Positions 55,827-64,000 of a stretch of 64,000 bases of DNA are shown one piece after another. Position 1 is the stretch's first letter. Every line of letters begins with the position of its first letter. The DNA is from Chryseobacterium lacus (GTDB lineage: Bacteria; Bacteroidota; Bacteroidia; Flavobacteriales; Weeksellaceae). The stretch spans positions 62,001 through 126,000 of the forward strand of contig NZ_QPIE01000001.1 of NCBI RefSeq assembly GCF_003336205.1. The letters are read 5' to 3'. Under the pieces are notes generated by a model. The model was not told the origin of the DNA and made no database searches. It worked only from the letters and a program-made list of their open reading frames with translations. The translations under genes were made by a program, and so were the position numbers.

Positions 55827-56345
55827 TCAATCAGTTATTATTTTTAGATCTTCATTAGTCAATTCAAATTTAGTGATTTGTTTTTTGATTCTTTTGATAA
55901 TACCCAATTTTCTTTTTTCGTCTAAAAAAAGGTATTGAGTGGGAGGATGGTAATTTTGCCCTTTTACCAGCATATTCCAGATGATGACCGCGATTTTTCT
56001 TGCCAGCGCTGTGATTGCTGCTGCTCTTCCTTTTTTGTAATTGATTCTTTTGAAGAAATCTACTAACCAGCCTTCTTTTAGATTGCCAATCGCATTTGCG
56101 GTGTTTCTAAGTGCGATTTTCAGCCTTGAACTTCCTTTCGGGATGTGATGGGATAGTATTTTTCCCCCGCTGATTTTATTATTGGGAGCCAGTCTGAGCC
56201 ATGCTGTAAATTGCTTGGCAGTTGGGAATTTCCTAATTCCTTCCAATCCGATTTCAGAAATAAGTGTCATAATCAAGCCTTCATTTACGCCTTCAATCGC
56301 CATTAAATCAATTCCTTCAAAATACTGATAGGCGATTAAATTCAA
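55827..56345 (-). CDS. IS110 transposase, C-terminal part (copy A)
   Basis: A 172-residue frame holding the C-terminal transposase_20-type domain: EGVNEGLIMTLISEIGLEGI, FTAWLRLAPNNKISGGKILS (catalytic Ser region) and KGSSRLKIALRNTANAIGN. It overlaps the N-terminal frame at an A9 run (56386-56394 on the plus strand as T9). Reading with a -1 slip there gives HIIEKKKHKRKNKNGLAETD joined directly to LNLIAYQYFEGI, a normal ~430-residue IS110 transposase. This could be programmed frameshifting or a shared inactivating change. Confidence 0.8.
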   Translation of the reverse strand: MNLIAYQYFEGIDLMAIEGVNEGLIMTLISEIGLEGIRKFPTAKQFTAWLRLAPNNKISGGKILSHHIPKGSSRLKIALRNTANAIGNLKEGWLVDFFKRINYKKGRAAAITALARKIAVIIWNMLVKGQNYHPPTQYLFLDEKRKLGIIKRIKKQITKFELTNEDLKIITD

Positions 56346-57184
56346 ATCTGTTTCTGCAAGTCCATTCTTGTTTTTTCGCTTGTGCTTTTTTTTTCAATGA
56401 TGTGTTGCTTTTTATGGTCATTTTTCTCAATAACTTCTTTGAGTAATTGGTCAATTTGAATATCTGTGTGTTTTATTTGTTCTTGAAGATGCTTATAAGA
56501 ACTCCACTCTTGTTGCAAAGCGAAAAGGTAATCTTTGCGACCATTAAACTGCAATGCTTTTGCAATCTCTTCTTGAGATTTTTTACAGTTGTAGTGACGC
56601 AGTTTTGCCAATTCTTCTCCTTTGTATTCTCCATTCAAGAAAGCTTCAATAATGGAAGAACCAGTAAGTCCAACAATGTCCCTTACCACCACTTCCAGTC
56701 GCATATTCATCAATCGCAAATACTTCTGCATTCTTTTGATGCAGGAAGCGCTTTGGTTGAGTAGATTTTGTCTGTGGCGAGAATAGGTTCGTACCGTATC
56801 GGTGTCTGAATCGGGCAGGAAACTGGCACTTAAAAGTCCCAGCGAATGAAGCTTCTGTATCCACTGGCAATCTTTGATGTCGGTTTTTTTTCCTTTGATA
56901 TTTTTGGTTTGTCTGCCATTGACCAAAATGACATCAAAACCTTGTCCTACAAGTGTGGAGAATAAATTTTGCCAGTATGTTCCTGTGCTTTCCATGGCAA
57001 TGGATTGTACATTTTTGGAACGTAGCCAATCACACATCTCGATTTGGTCCTGACTGTAAACACCAAACTGTTTGACATCTTCTGCATTTTGTCCTACCGC
57101 CACCCAATGGCTGCGACTTCCAATATCAATTCCCGCAGCATTGGGATTGACCACTTCTAATGAAATTTGCTTTTTTGTTTCCAT
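56342..57184 (-). CDS. IS110 transposase, N-terminal DEDD part (copy A)
   Basis: A 280-residue frame, starting METKKQISLEVVNPNAAGID. It carries the RuvC-like DEDD catalytic residues: D in AAGIDIGSRSHWVAVG, E in SIAMESTGTYWQNLF, and DxxxD in KGKKTDIKDCQWIQKL. A coiled region follows (YKHLQEQIKHTDIQIDQLLK). It stops just after the A9 run at KTRMDLQKQI. An upstream frame extension of 44 codons covers the noncoding 5' end and lacks family sequence. Confidence 0.85.
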   Translation of the reverse strand: METKKQISLEVVNPNAAGIDIGSRSHWVAVGQNAEDVKQFGVYSQDQIEMCDWLRSKNVQSIAMESTGTYWQNLFSTLVGQGFDVILVNGRQTKNIKGKKTDIKDCQWIQKLHSLGLLSASFLPDSDTDTVRTYSRHRQNLLNQSASCIKRMQKYLRLMNMRLEVVVRDIVGLTGSSIIEAFLNGEYKGEELAKLRHYNCKKSQEEIAKALQFNGRKDYLFALQQEWSSYKHLQEQIKHTDIQIDQLLKEVIEKNDHKKQHIIEKKSTSEKTRMDLQKQI

Positions 57185-57560
57185 TACTGAATTTTTAAAA
57201 ATAAATATTAAACAAAAACTCCAGGGGTCATGTCTTCGAGACTTGAAATTATTCTGATCGGGATATTTGCCAAAAGCAAATTCACCATTAAACTCTAACA
57301 CAGCCAAAGATATCACTATCCTAGGCTTTTACACGACCTAACCTTGATTGCACGAGGGGTTCTAGGACACCATTGTTTATACCGGCCTTAACAAGGAGCA
57401 GTGTGAAATTAGTGAAATTTGTTGAAGGAAAGAGGACTTATTGGGTCGTTAGCTGGAAAACTCAACCTTTTTTCTATGGTAGGGGGATTGCAGCTAACGG
57501 CAGACTGTGAAAAAACTCACAATCCTTTGTTAACAAATATAGTAAAATAGTTGTCAGAAA
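57185..57560 (-). ncRNA. Candidate bridge RNA region of IS110 copy A
   Basis: IS110 elements encode a structured bridge RNA in the noncoding end upstream of the transposase, which directs target and donor choice. This ~375-base stretch upstream of the N-terminal frame has no coding frame of its own and contains paired segments: CGTTAGCTG (57448-57456) with CAGCTAACG (57492-57500), and TGTGA/TCACA (57507-57522). Extent and strand of the RNA are not determined. Confidence 0.45.
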
Positions 57561-58258: not shown

Positions 58259-58777
58259 TCAATCAGTTATTATTTTTAGATCTTCATTAGTCAATTCAAA
58301 TTTAGTGATTTGTTTTTTGATTCTTTTGATAATACCCAATTTTCTTTTTTCGTCTAAAAAAAGGTATTGAGTGGGAGGATGGTAATTTTGCCCTTTTACC
58401 AGCATATTCCAGATGATGACCGCGATTTTTCTTGCCAGCGCTGTGATTGCTGCTGCTCTTCCTTTTTTGTAATTGATTCTTTTGAAGAAATCTACTAACC
58501 AGCCTTCTTTTAGATTGCCAATCGCATTTGCGGTGTTTCTAAGTGCGATTTTCAGCCTTGAACTTCCTTTCGGGATGTGATGGGATAGTATTTTTCCCCC
58601 GCTGATTTTATTATTGGGAGCCAGTCTGAGCCATGCTGTAAATTGCTTGGCAGTTGGGAATTTCCTAATTCCTTCCAATCCGATTTCAGAAATAAGTGTC
58701 ATAATCAAGCCTTCATTTACGCCTTCAATCGCCATTAAATCAATTCCTTCAAAATACTGATAGGCGATTAAATTCAA
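58259..58777 (-). CDS. IS110 transposase, C-terminal part (copy B)
   Basis: Identical in translation to the C-terminal frame of copy A, with the serine-domain block LRLAPNNKISGGKILS. It overlaps the N-terminal frame and needs a -1 slip at the A9 run (58818-58826 as T9 on the plus strand) to join it. Confidence 0.8.
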   Translation of the reverse strand: MNLIAYQYFEGIDLMAIEGVNEGLIMTLISEIGLEGIRKFPTAKQFTAWLRLAPNNKISGGKILSHHIPKGSSRLKIALRNTANAIGNLKEGWLVDFFKRINYKKGRAAAITALARKIAVIIWNMLVKGQNYHPPTQYLFLDEKRKLGIIKRIKKQITKFELTNEDLKIITD

Positions 58778-59616
58778 ATCTGTTTCTGCAAGTCCATTCT
58801 TGTTTTTTCGCTTGTGCTTTTTTTTTCAATGATGTGTTGCTTTTTATGGTCATTTTTCTCAATAACTTCTTTGAGTAATTGGTCAATTTGAATATCTGTG
58901 TGTTTTATTTGTTCTTGAAGATGCTTATAAGAACTCCACTCTTGTTGCAAAGCGAAAAGGTAATCTTTGCGACCATTAAACTGCAATGCTTTTGCAATCT
59001 CTTCTTGAGATTTTTTACAGTTGTAGTGACGCAGTTTTGCCAATTCTTCTCCTTTGTATTCTCCATTCAAGAAAGCTTCAATAATGGAAGAACCAGTAAG
59101 TCCAACAATGTCCCTTACCACCACTTCCAGTCGCATATTCATCAATCGCAAATACTTCTGCATTCTTTTGATGCAGGAAGCGCTTTGGTTGAGTAGATTT
59201 TGTCTGTGGCGAGAATAGGTTCGTACCGTATCGGTGTCTGAATCGGGCAGGAAACTGGCACTTAAAAGTCCCAGCGAATGAAGCTTCTGTATCCACTGGC
59301 AATCTTTGATGTCGGTTTTTTTTCCTTTGATATTTTTGGTTTGTCTGCCATTGACCAAAATGACATCAAAACCTTGTCCTACAAGTGTGGAGAATAAATT
59401 TTGCCAGTATGTTCCTGTGCTTTCCATGGCAATGGATTGTACATTTTTGGAACGTAGCCAATCACACATCTCGATTTGGTCCTGACTGTAAACACCAAAC
59501 TGTTTGACATCTTCTGCATTTTGTCCTACCGCCACCCAATGGCTGCGACTTCCAATATCAATTCCCGCAGCATTGGGATTGACCACTTCTAATGAAATTT
59601 GCTTTTTTGTTTCCAT
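58774..59616 (-). CDS. IS110 transposase, N-terminal DEDD part (copy B)
   Basis: Identical in translation to the N-terminal frame of copy A, starting METKKQISLEVVNPNAAGID and bearing AAGIDIGSRSHW, SIAMESTGTYW and KTDIKDCQW. Ends at KTRMDLQKQI after the A9 run. Confidence 0.85.
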   Translation of the reverse strand: METKKQISLEVVNPNAAGIDIGSRSHWVAVGQNAEDVKQFGVYSQDQIEMCDWLRSKNVQSIAMESTGTYWQNLFSTLVGQGFDVILVNGRQTKNIKGKKTDIKDCQWIQKLHSLGLLSASFLPDSDTDTVRTYSRHRQNLLNQSASCIKRMQKYLRLMNMRLEVVVRDIVGLTGSSIIEAFLNGEYKGEELAKLRHYNCKKSQEEIAKALQFNGRKDYLFALQQEWSSYKHLQEQIKHTDIQIDQLLKEVIEKNDHKKQHIIEKKSTSEKTRMDLQKQI

Positions 59617-59992
59617 TACTGAATTTTTAAAAATAAATATTAAACAAAAACTCCAGGGGTCATGTCTTCGAGACTTGAAATTATTCTGATCGGGATATTT
59701 GCCAAAAGCAAATTCACCATTAAACTCTAACACAGCCAAAGATATCACTATCCTAGGCTTTTACACGACCTAACCTTGATTGCACGAGGGGTTCTAGGAC
59801 ACCATTGTTTATACCGGCCTTAACAAGGAGCAGTGTGAAATTAGTGAAATTTGTTGAAGGAAAGAGGACTTATTGGGTCGTTAGCTGGAAAACTCAACCT
59901 TTTTTCTATGGTAGGGGGATTGCAGCTAACGGCAGACTGTGAAAAAACTCACAATCCTTTGTTAACAAATATAGTAAAATAGTTGTCAGAAA
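59617..59992 (-). ncRNA. Candidate bridge RNA region of IS110 copy B
   Basis: Same sequence as 57185-57560, including the CGTTAGCTG/CAGCTAACG and TGTGA/TCACA pairings. Confidence 0.45.
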
Positions 59993-61066: not shown

Positions 61067-62014
61067 GTGCCTGGTTTTACAGAACTTTTAGGCCGGTTTG
61101 AACGTACGGTTTCGGTGCTTGGAAGAAGCCAAAGTACGTTCAGTAATTACTCCAGACACGTGGCTGGGGTGTCGCTGCATTTCAGGAAAATCCCGACAGA
61201 ATTGGATCCTGAGCAAATCCACGATTACCTTTTTTACCTTCAGAAAAAATCAAAATCACCCTCGCAATCGTATTTTAAACACACGGTTTACGGATTTCGG
61301 TTTCTGTTGAAATCGGAAGGATTGAGCTACGATTTTCTAAGTCTTCCGGAAATTAAAAAAGAGAAAAAACTTCCTGTAGTGCTCAGTAAACAGGAGGTTT
61401 GGCAGCTGTTGTCCGGCTGTAAACTTTTAAAACATAAAATCTTAATCGGGTTGCTTTACGGCTGTGGATTGCGCTGTTTGGAAGTCAGAAATCTTCGTCT
61501 CTGTGATTTGGATTTTGACAGAAAACAGCTGAAAGTGGTTCAGGGAAAAGGCAAAAAAGACCGCTACTTACCACTTTCCGAACATTTGATTCGGGGTTTA
61601 AAAAAATACATTGAAGCGGAAAAACCGGAAGATTTTCTCTTTGGAGCACCCCGTGCAAATCGTGCGGGTGGAGAATTCGATTCAAGATATTCGCAACGCG
61701 ACGTACAATGGGCGGTGAAACAGGCTTCAAAAACGGCAAAAATAGGGAAAGAAGTGAGTGTTCATACGCTTCGCCACAGCTTTGCGACGCATCTTTTGGA
61801 GGATGGGATGAACATTGTGAGCGTCAAAAATCTCCTCGGCCACGAAAACATCGAAACTACCCTCGTTTACCTTCAAATCGCCCAACTTTCTACCCAAAAA
61901 ATATTCTCCCCACTGGATACTTTGTTTGAGGAATGTCGTCGAAAAAAGCTTCTTCGGGGAAAAGTTCAACCTGCATTTTATACAAAATTCCCTCTACCTC
62001 TTTTGGAAAACTGA
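61067..62014 (+). CDS. Tyrosine recombinase, intact copy
   Basis: A 315-residue tyrosine recombinase with all catalytic residues: Arg136 (YGCGLRCLEVRNL), Lys in QGKGKKDRYLPL, His233/Arg236 (SVHTLRHSFATHL), His259 (NLLGHENIETT), Tyr268 (TLVYLQIAQ). It belongs to the Bacteroidota recombinases often linked to IS91-type elements (GKGKKDRYLPLSEHLIRGLK, KIFSPLDTLF), not to IntI: the IntI extra helix before HTLRHSF is missing. The frame opens at GTG 61067, but an upstream ATG (60999) plus one extra A in its A8 run would give MATKKKSSDELRENKIINQA joined in frame, so slippage may make the true N-terminus. After LDTLF the last ~30 residues probably read into flanking DNA. Confidence 0.85.
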   Translation: MPGFTELLGRFERTVSVLGRSQSTFSNYSRHVAGVSLHFRKIPTELDPEQIHDYLFYLQKKSKSPSQSYFKHTVYGFRFLLKSEGLSYDFLSLPEIKKEKKLPVVLSKQEVWQLLSGCKLLKHKILIGLLYGCGLRCLEVRNLRLCDLDFDRKQLKVVQGKGKKDRYLPLSEHLIRGLKKYIEAEKPEDFLFGAPRANRAGGEFDSRYSQRDVQWAVKQASKTAKIGKEVSVHTLRHSFATHLLEDGMNIVSVKNLLGHENIETTLVYLQIAQLSTQKIFSPLDTLFEECRRKKLLRGKVQPAFYTKFPLPLLEN

Positions 62015-62271: not shown

Positions 62272-63027
62272 CTATTGCTGCAGATATCCAATGACACCTA
62301 AACCGTTGTACTGCTTATTCTTTAGCGGATATCGACCTCCGTTCATCTGCTGATAAAACTCCACCAGCAACAGATAAAAAACAGGATGTGGCCCGCTGGG
62401 AATAGACGGCACCGCCAGTTCCAGCTGCACAGATTCAATCTGCTTTTCAATGGTCTGCACGGCACTCTCCGTCAGTACATACCTCTCTTCCGCAAAGTCC
62501 ACCTGCACTGCGATCAGCTGCAGGTTCGCATCGGTAGAACTATCAGGAAAGTTTAAATGGCGCTTCGGAATAAAATCCGCATACTCCAAACTTCCTGTCG
62601 CAGGATCCAGCGCCTGCAGCTGCAAAAAAAGCGAGGCAACAGGTGCGCTGGCATTGAAATCAAAACCATTCAGTTGCTTGGGTCCGTCAGGTTTTGCAAT
62701 ACCGATAGCCACATTCCGGTTTCCCCTTGGCGATTCTGTATCCAGCGCTTTTATCAGATGCATCACCCGGTTCAGCCGGCTGCTGGTGTGGTGATCTTTT
62801 GCAAGATCTACCTTATCTGATACACTGCTCCGGAAAAGTTTCGCCATTTTCGCACAGTGCGAAAATTCTAAACCGTTCTCACGCGTTCGTTCAAATGCCG
62901 GATCCTTTGCAATCCGCTCTTTGCTCAAACTTCCCTTGGTGCGGATCATGGATCCGTCTTTTGTTTTGTAAAAGGTCATCCCTTTTAATGTACCCTCAAT
63001 ATTGAAGATACCATCGAATTTGGCCAT
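62272..63027 (-). CDS. Conserved hypothetical protein
   Basis: A 251-residue soluble protein without signal peptide. It opens MAKFDGIFNIEGTLKGMTFY, then KTKDGSMIRTKGSLSKERIA and AFERTRENGLEFSHCAKMA, a pattern I associate with a Flavobacteriia protein family of unknown function. The C-terminus (HPVFYLLLVEFYQQMNGGRY) ends NGLGVIGYLQQ. It has a promoter and terminator of its own, and it lies just outside the island. Confidence 0.7.
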   Translation of the reverse strand: MAKFDGIFNIEGTLKGMTFYKTKDGSMIRTKGSLSKERIAKDPAFERTRENGLEFSHCAKMAKLFRSSVSDKVDLAKDHHTSSRLNRVMHLIKALDTESPRGNRNVAIGIAKPDGPKQLNGFDFNASAPVASLFLQLQALDPATGSLEYADFIPKRHLNFPDSSTDANLQLIAVQVDFAEERYVLTESAVQTIEKQIESVQLELAVPSIPSGPHPVFYLLLVEFYQQMNGGRYPLKNKQYNGLGVIGYLQQ

Positions 63028-63357: not shown

Positions 63358-64000
63358 ATGAAATTCATTATTTCAAATGAAGAACTTCGGAAAGCACTGG
63401 AAACAGTCGGTAGTGTTTTCACAGCCTCACAACAGAAACCTATCTTATCTGCAGTTAATGGCTTTATTAAAGACAACAAAAACCAGTTTCGGGCGACTTC
63501 CGATGTAGAAAACTATGCTTCAGACCTTAAGGAACGCTGGGAAACTTATGAGGAAGTAATGGAAATCTTTATGGAGAAATATCCGTTGGGCGTCTTTGGA
63601 AATACGGTTTTCCCGGAGTGGGAATTGTATGAGAATAAAATACAGGAAGTGGTTAAAAAATTGCTGACAGAAGTTTTTGTACGAAACGAGAAACTGAATT
63701 TTAAAAAAATAATCGCAAAAATTCTAAAAGAGCAAAGATGGAAGCACTTTGCAGGCCTTCACTTCCTCTCCGTAATGAATCCGGATGCACATGAAAAAGC
63801 CGTTGAATTTTTGAATAAAATGATTCGTGCTTTTGAAGCACATTACATTGCCTTAGAAATTGAATCACACCTGAAACCTTATCTCACGGGAGTCTTACAG
63901 TTACTTTCATCCATGAAAACACAGGCGGGAGAAATATTGGAAACAATAAAAAACAAAAATATTCTGCGGCAGGAAAATCCAGAGCAGGAAGAAATTACAC
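63358..64000 (+). CDS. Chimeric protein with beta-clamp-like N-terminus (truncated by window)
   Basis: Open from ATG 63358 to the right edge (214+ codons). Residues 1-33, MKFIISNEELRKALETVGSV and FTASQQKPILSAV, closely resemble the start of the DNA polymerase III beta subunit, and the next ~20 (GFIKDNKNQFRATSDVENYA) still fit its first strands. From about residue 57 the sequence turns into a long helical region (KERWETYEEVMEIFMEKYPL, and LTEVFVRNEKLNFKKIIAKI), not found in the clamp as I know it. It may be a fusion of a dnaN 5' end to another gene, or a divergent paralogue. Confidence 0.55.
   Translation, partial: MKFIISNEELRKALETVGSVFTASQQKPILSAVNGFIKDNKNQFRATSDVENYASDLKERWETYEEVMEIFMEKYPLGVFGNTVFPEWELYENKIQEVVKKLLTEVFVRNEKLNFKKIIAKILKEQRWKHFAGLHFLSVMNPDAHEKAVEFLNKMIRAFEAHYIALEIESHLKPYLTGVLQLLSSMKTQAGEILETIKNKNILRQENPEQEEIT

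Follow-up and report, generated by a model that had tools for sequence, protein, structure and literature searches.

What kind of protein is encoded by a gene that begins like the sliding clamp DnaN and then departs from it? This question is raised by the ATG-started frame at position 63358 on the (+) strand of the Chryseobacterium lacus genome (G000), the product of which is termed X hereafter. The frame is still open at the edge of the window, namely the whole stretch of 64,000 nucleotides that was analyzed. In the source genome it extends to the window-equivalent position 64338 (G000:C1:126338), giving a full-length protein of 326 residues (63358-64338), which is not a clamp throughout. Apart from the X locus, the window is ordinary chromosome. 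The features considered here are as follows.

61067..62014, + strand: tyrosine recombinase, possibly an unrelated neighbor (Phage_integrase PF00589, E 5.6e-36)
62272..63027, - strand: partner gene of X, 251 residues, from a multi-copy family that no Pfam model covers; characterized by its pairing with X in other genomes and by the distribution of its family
63358..63447, + strand: codons 1-30 of X, probably dnaN-derived (first strand and first helix of the clamp, and PIL), as judged by amino-acid and nucleotide identity with the dnaN genes of the family
63448..64000, + strand: remainder of X within the window, a helical region without clamp similarity, as judged from its homologues and a low-confidence helix prediction

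A search of the own genome with the window part of X matched only X itself and dnaN, the latter aligning to residues 1-49 of X at 48% identity. This dnaN is a single intact copy (contig C27, L004:5065-6192) and the sole match to PF00712 above the cut-off in the genome. Aligned from the start codon against 28 dnaN genes of the family, codons 1-30 of X share 53-63% of amino acids and 54-73% of nucleotides, whereas the identity of the following 90 nucleotides to the same genes falls to the chance level of 27-39%, which places a sharp boundary between clamp and non-clamp at about residue 30 (...KPIL|SAV...). The local alignments between X and DnaN extend beyond this boundary to residues 43-48. Thus the clamp likeness that the initial annotation assigned to residues 1 to about 50 is real at the start, but reaches past residue ~30 only in local alignments.

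The start-aligned likeness of residues 1-30 to the clamp N-terminus is beyond chance. When 148 genomes of the family were searched with DnaN residues 1-37, X was found with an E-value of 1.8e-6 and 61% identity over 31 residues, a score approximating that of the true dnaN from some genera. Among the matches listed, X is the only non-dnaN protein with an E-value below 0.1, and the next one has 0.135, which excludes a chance likeness; the similarity is thus not below chance, as the initial annotation had allowed it might be. In addition, X shares 19 of 30 start-aligned residues with DnaN, compared to at most 10 of 30 for any other listed non-dnaN frame from a set of 538. A search of the PDB with X yielded a sliding clamp (8dt6, E 0.0047) as the top and only meaningful match.

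Nevertheless, X does not make a clamp. The clamp N-terminal model PF00712 scores 15.6 bits over residues 1-48 only, against a gathering cut-off of 24.4, and the three-domain clamp model TIGR00663 scores 14.3 bits over residues 1-47, against a cut-off of 137.65. With both models below their cut-offs and an intact dnaN on contig C27, X was rejected as a full-length clamp or the functional clamp of the genome. As a clamp domain cannot be formed by 30 residues, the fragment in X would not serve as a DNA-encircling part, and a role of X as a replication-ring protein is not supported. The proposal that X might be replication-linked is likewise not supported: X carries only the first strand and helix, the clamp models stay far below their cut-offs, and the homologues in genomes G179 and G396 have no clear clamp-like start.

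The body of X, about 296 codons, belongs to a rare helical family that has no characterized members. Model searches with X against Pfam, NCBIfam, PHROG and PADLOC revealed no family that applies. Among the PADLOC anti-phage defence models, AbiEi alone appeared at an E-value of 0.03, and X was dropped as a known anti-phage defence protein. For structure prediction, the Kaistella protein (see below) and the window part of X were submitted. AlphaFold2 with a two-row alignment predicted X as helical at low confidence (pLDDT 42); the C-terminal 93 residues alone were also predicted to be helical (pLDDT 66.5), and a Foldseek search with them found no confident fold match. A 219-residue open reading frame of genome G268, adjacent to an integrase and an excisionase-like gene, is weakly similar to the C-terminal ~90 residues (E 1.3e-5, one genome; hhalign probability 85%). 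Weak domain matches in G207 and G286 turned out to be unrelated genes, and no relationship to RteC (PF09357) was detected, with no match of X to the RteC model and an hhalign probability below 1% in profile comparison. Altogether, X is a chimera, in agreement with the initial view of a clamp N-terminus joined to an unrelated helical protein: clamp similarity is absent past residue ~30, and the remainder is predicted, at low confidence, to be helical.

Full-length homologues of X were found in two further genomes among the 320 searched in the family, Kaistella montana and G179, at ~36% identity, in addition to a distant homologue in G396, from another family, which aligns mostly through the C-terminal part. 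The Kaistella protein starts with MKFLVSSGELQKALEIISGAVAAS, of which 15-17 of 24 residues are identical to DnaN of the family, compared to 12-15 of 24 for the window X and 12 of 24 between the two X proteins. As the Kaistella protein also has the clamp-like start, a misassembly in the C. lacus genome is unlikely. Both proteins have a glutamate at position 15, where the compared clamps of the family have Gln, Asn or Gly, and the matching residues EL, KAL and SQ in X are those of the DnaN of its own family rather than of the G396 DnaN. The clamp-like stretch ends at about codon 30 in the window X and at about codon 24 in Kaistella X. The G179 protein retains only a weak trace, namely a strand and helix of similar kind at its start, with K-A-L in register, and the G396 protein has none. 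At the DNA level, neither the window X nor Kaistella X is closest to the dnaN of its own genome. Synonymous codons agree between X and dnaN at 6.9 of 17.4 shared amino acids, against 6.4 expected from codon usage, whereas dnaN genes among themselves agree at 0.51 against 0.33 expected. The synonymous sites are therefore saturated, indicating either that the capture is old or that selection acting on the protein preserved or created the likeness; no DNA-level evidence thus adds to the protein likeness, and selection toward a clamp-like start is compatible with it.

We consider it reasonably probable that X is an accessory gene at a variable locus, the chimeric structure of which goes back to an old capture of its 30 dnaN-like codons; it may also form part of a two-gene module. 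Within this reading, we infer with moderate confidence that the start of X arose by capture of a dnaN 5' end. A single old illegitimate recombination would have joined the 5' end of a dnaN copy, in frame, to an ancestral X gene in a common ancestor of the window X and Kaistella X, which share E15. The captured fragment would then have become the new start of X, providing the start codon, the first codons, and one strand and helix that may pack on the helical body. The two X proteins are at least as close to DnaN as they are to one another, which fits a single capture from a donor that changes slowly; however, since G179 X lacks a clear clamp start, capture might have happened twice, or the start might have been lost.

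The same observations can be read as molecular mimicry, in which the N-terminus of X is kept or driven DnaN-like through interaction with the clamp or a clamp partner, or through titration as a decoy. About 60% of the amino acids are kept in the start of X despite saturated synonymous sites, and the nearness of both X proteins to DnaN would fit as well, but a single old capture from a conserved donor yields an identical pattern, and the start is a weak trace in G179 and missing in G396. Moreover, the dimer interface and the partner-binding pocket of the clamp are not known to be built from its first 30 residues, which counts against mimicry, and we regard it as unlikely. We find it very doubtful that an accessory family uses the clamp's first strand and helix, copied and under selection, as a clamp-directed mimic or tether. 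It is also improbable that the strand-helix start is the X family's own and resembles DnaN by coincidence or shared helix propensity, without common ancestry. The G179 start and the sub-threshold scores of the clamp family models are consistent with such a coincidence, whereas the E-value of 1.8e-6, unmatched by any comparable non-dnaN protein among the matches listed from the 148 genomes, and the 19 of 30 identities against at most 10 of 30 argue against it. Recurrent short-patch gene conversion, by which the host dnaN 5' end would repeatedly overwrite the 5' ends of X genes, could account for the different ends of the clamp-like stretch in the two genomes; yet neither X is nearest to its own dnaN and the synonymous matches show no excess, leaving this explanation distinctly unlikely.

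The capture reading places X in a variable locus. The sister species (G024) shares 91% DNA identity downstream of X, and synteny ends at window-equivalent position 64812, 0.47 kb past X. The corresponding slot in G024 holds a DUF6266 gene (L122:574-1278), where C. lacus has the X/partner pair (62272-64338); as the similarity stops here and another gene stands in place of the pair, this slot is variable. X thus belongs to a segment that a close relative lacks, as for a gene of a genomic island or mobile module. Next to the slot are a LuxR-type regulator gene and a group of genes for secreted repeat proteins. Surface-polysaccharide genes, read from translations, lie beside three of four X loci (G179, G396 and Kaistella). 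Further upstream in the window, two IS110-type copies (55827-57316 and 58259-59748) lie 2.4 kb apart, with identical predicted proteins and the transposase split into two frames in both. Downstream of X in G179 (L007:2679-3537) is repetitive DNA with frames containing repeated CHSERISAA/FVILKESPLL-like peptides, probably non-coding repeats.

As to mobility, a tyrosine recombinase lies 1.3 kb from X. Around X, neither convincing flanking repeats nor a tRNA was found. Searches of phage, plasmid and viral-contig collections found no relatives of X, and an origin from phages, plasmids or viruses was dropped. That X is a mobile-element protein, as suggested initially, is possible: the segment absent from the sister species, the nearby recombinase and the weak integrase-linked C-terminal match agree with it, but the searches of those collections found no relatives, and a mobile or variable-locus character is plausible. 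A remnant of an integrative element that had its attachment site in the 5' end of dnaN and took this piece along, fused to an element frame, would explain the absent segment, the recombinase and the likeness of the C-terminal domain to the G268 frame, but is highly improbable given an intact dnaN on another contig, a locus with no tRNA or convincing flanking repeats, and no matches in the phage, plasmid and viral-contig collections.

The divergent partner belongs to a protein family that about half of the genomes in the bacterial family carry, frequently as multiple copies and with as many as seven in one genome. Its members (L054-L072) have ~250 residues with the pattern MAR.KGI.K..GT..G.TFY..KDG...R.KGG, some near RteC and AraC-type genes. 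By inspection, 6 of 20 other partner loci have RteC-like and/or AraC-type genes in their vicinity, and the assignment as RteC and HTH_18 was confirmed at one of the loci inspected. X and the partner occur together in three genomes: that of the window, G179 (divergent and adjacent) and G396 (1.8 kb apart); the Kaistella contig starts at X. More tentatively, X and its divergent partner may form a two-gene accessory module that moves between variable loci. From this context, X might serve the module as a regulator or adaptor of helical structure, and RteC-type regulators could perhaps fill this role beside other partner copies.

X provides a clean natural case in which the 5' end of an essential gene has found a second use, opening an unrelated accessory gene, and this start was kept at the amino-acid level long enough for synonymous sites to randomize. 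Literature searches for fusions of dnaN fragments and for DUF6266 found nothing. X-like proteins also present a warning for automatic annotation, as N-terminal matches could label them clamps. The case would become much more interesting if the start contacts the replication machinery; a true mimic or tether would represent an undescribed way of tying a variable-locus protein to replication.

Compared with known systems, the DUF6266 protein (PF19781) holds the slot of X in the sister species and, in an alignment, resembles the partner protein over a short N-terminal stretch, but the partner protein does not match the DUF6266 model. RteC (PF09357), a regulator of Bacteroides conjugative transposons, is similar in size to X and is encoded near some partner-family copies, whereas profile comparison detects no sequence relation between the two. 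With DnaN (PF00712, TIGR00663, PDB 8dt6), X shares the start MKFI..(S), EL.KAL.TV and SQ..PIL in register from the start codon. However, DnaN is a protein of ~375 residues with three clamp domains, whereas X, with 326 residues, is predicted to be helical and lacks the remaining clamp.
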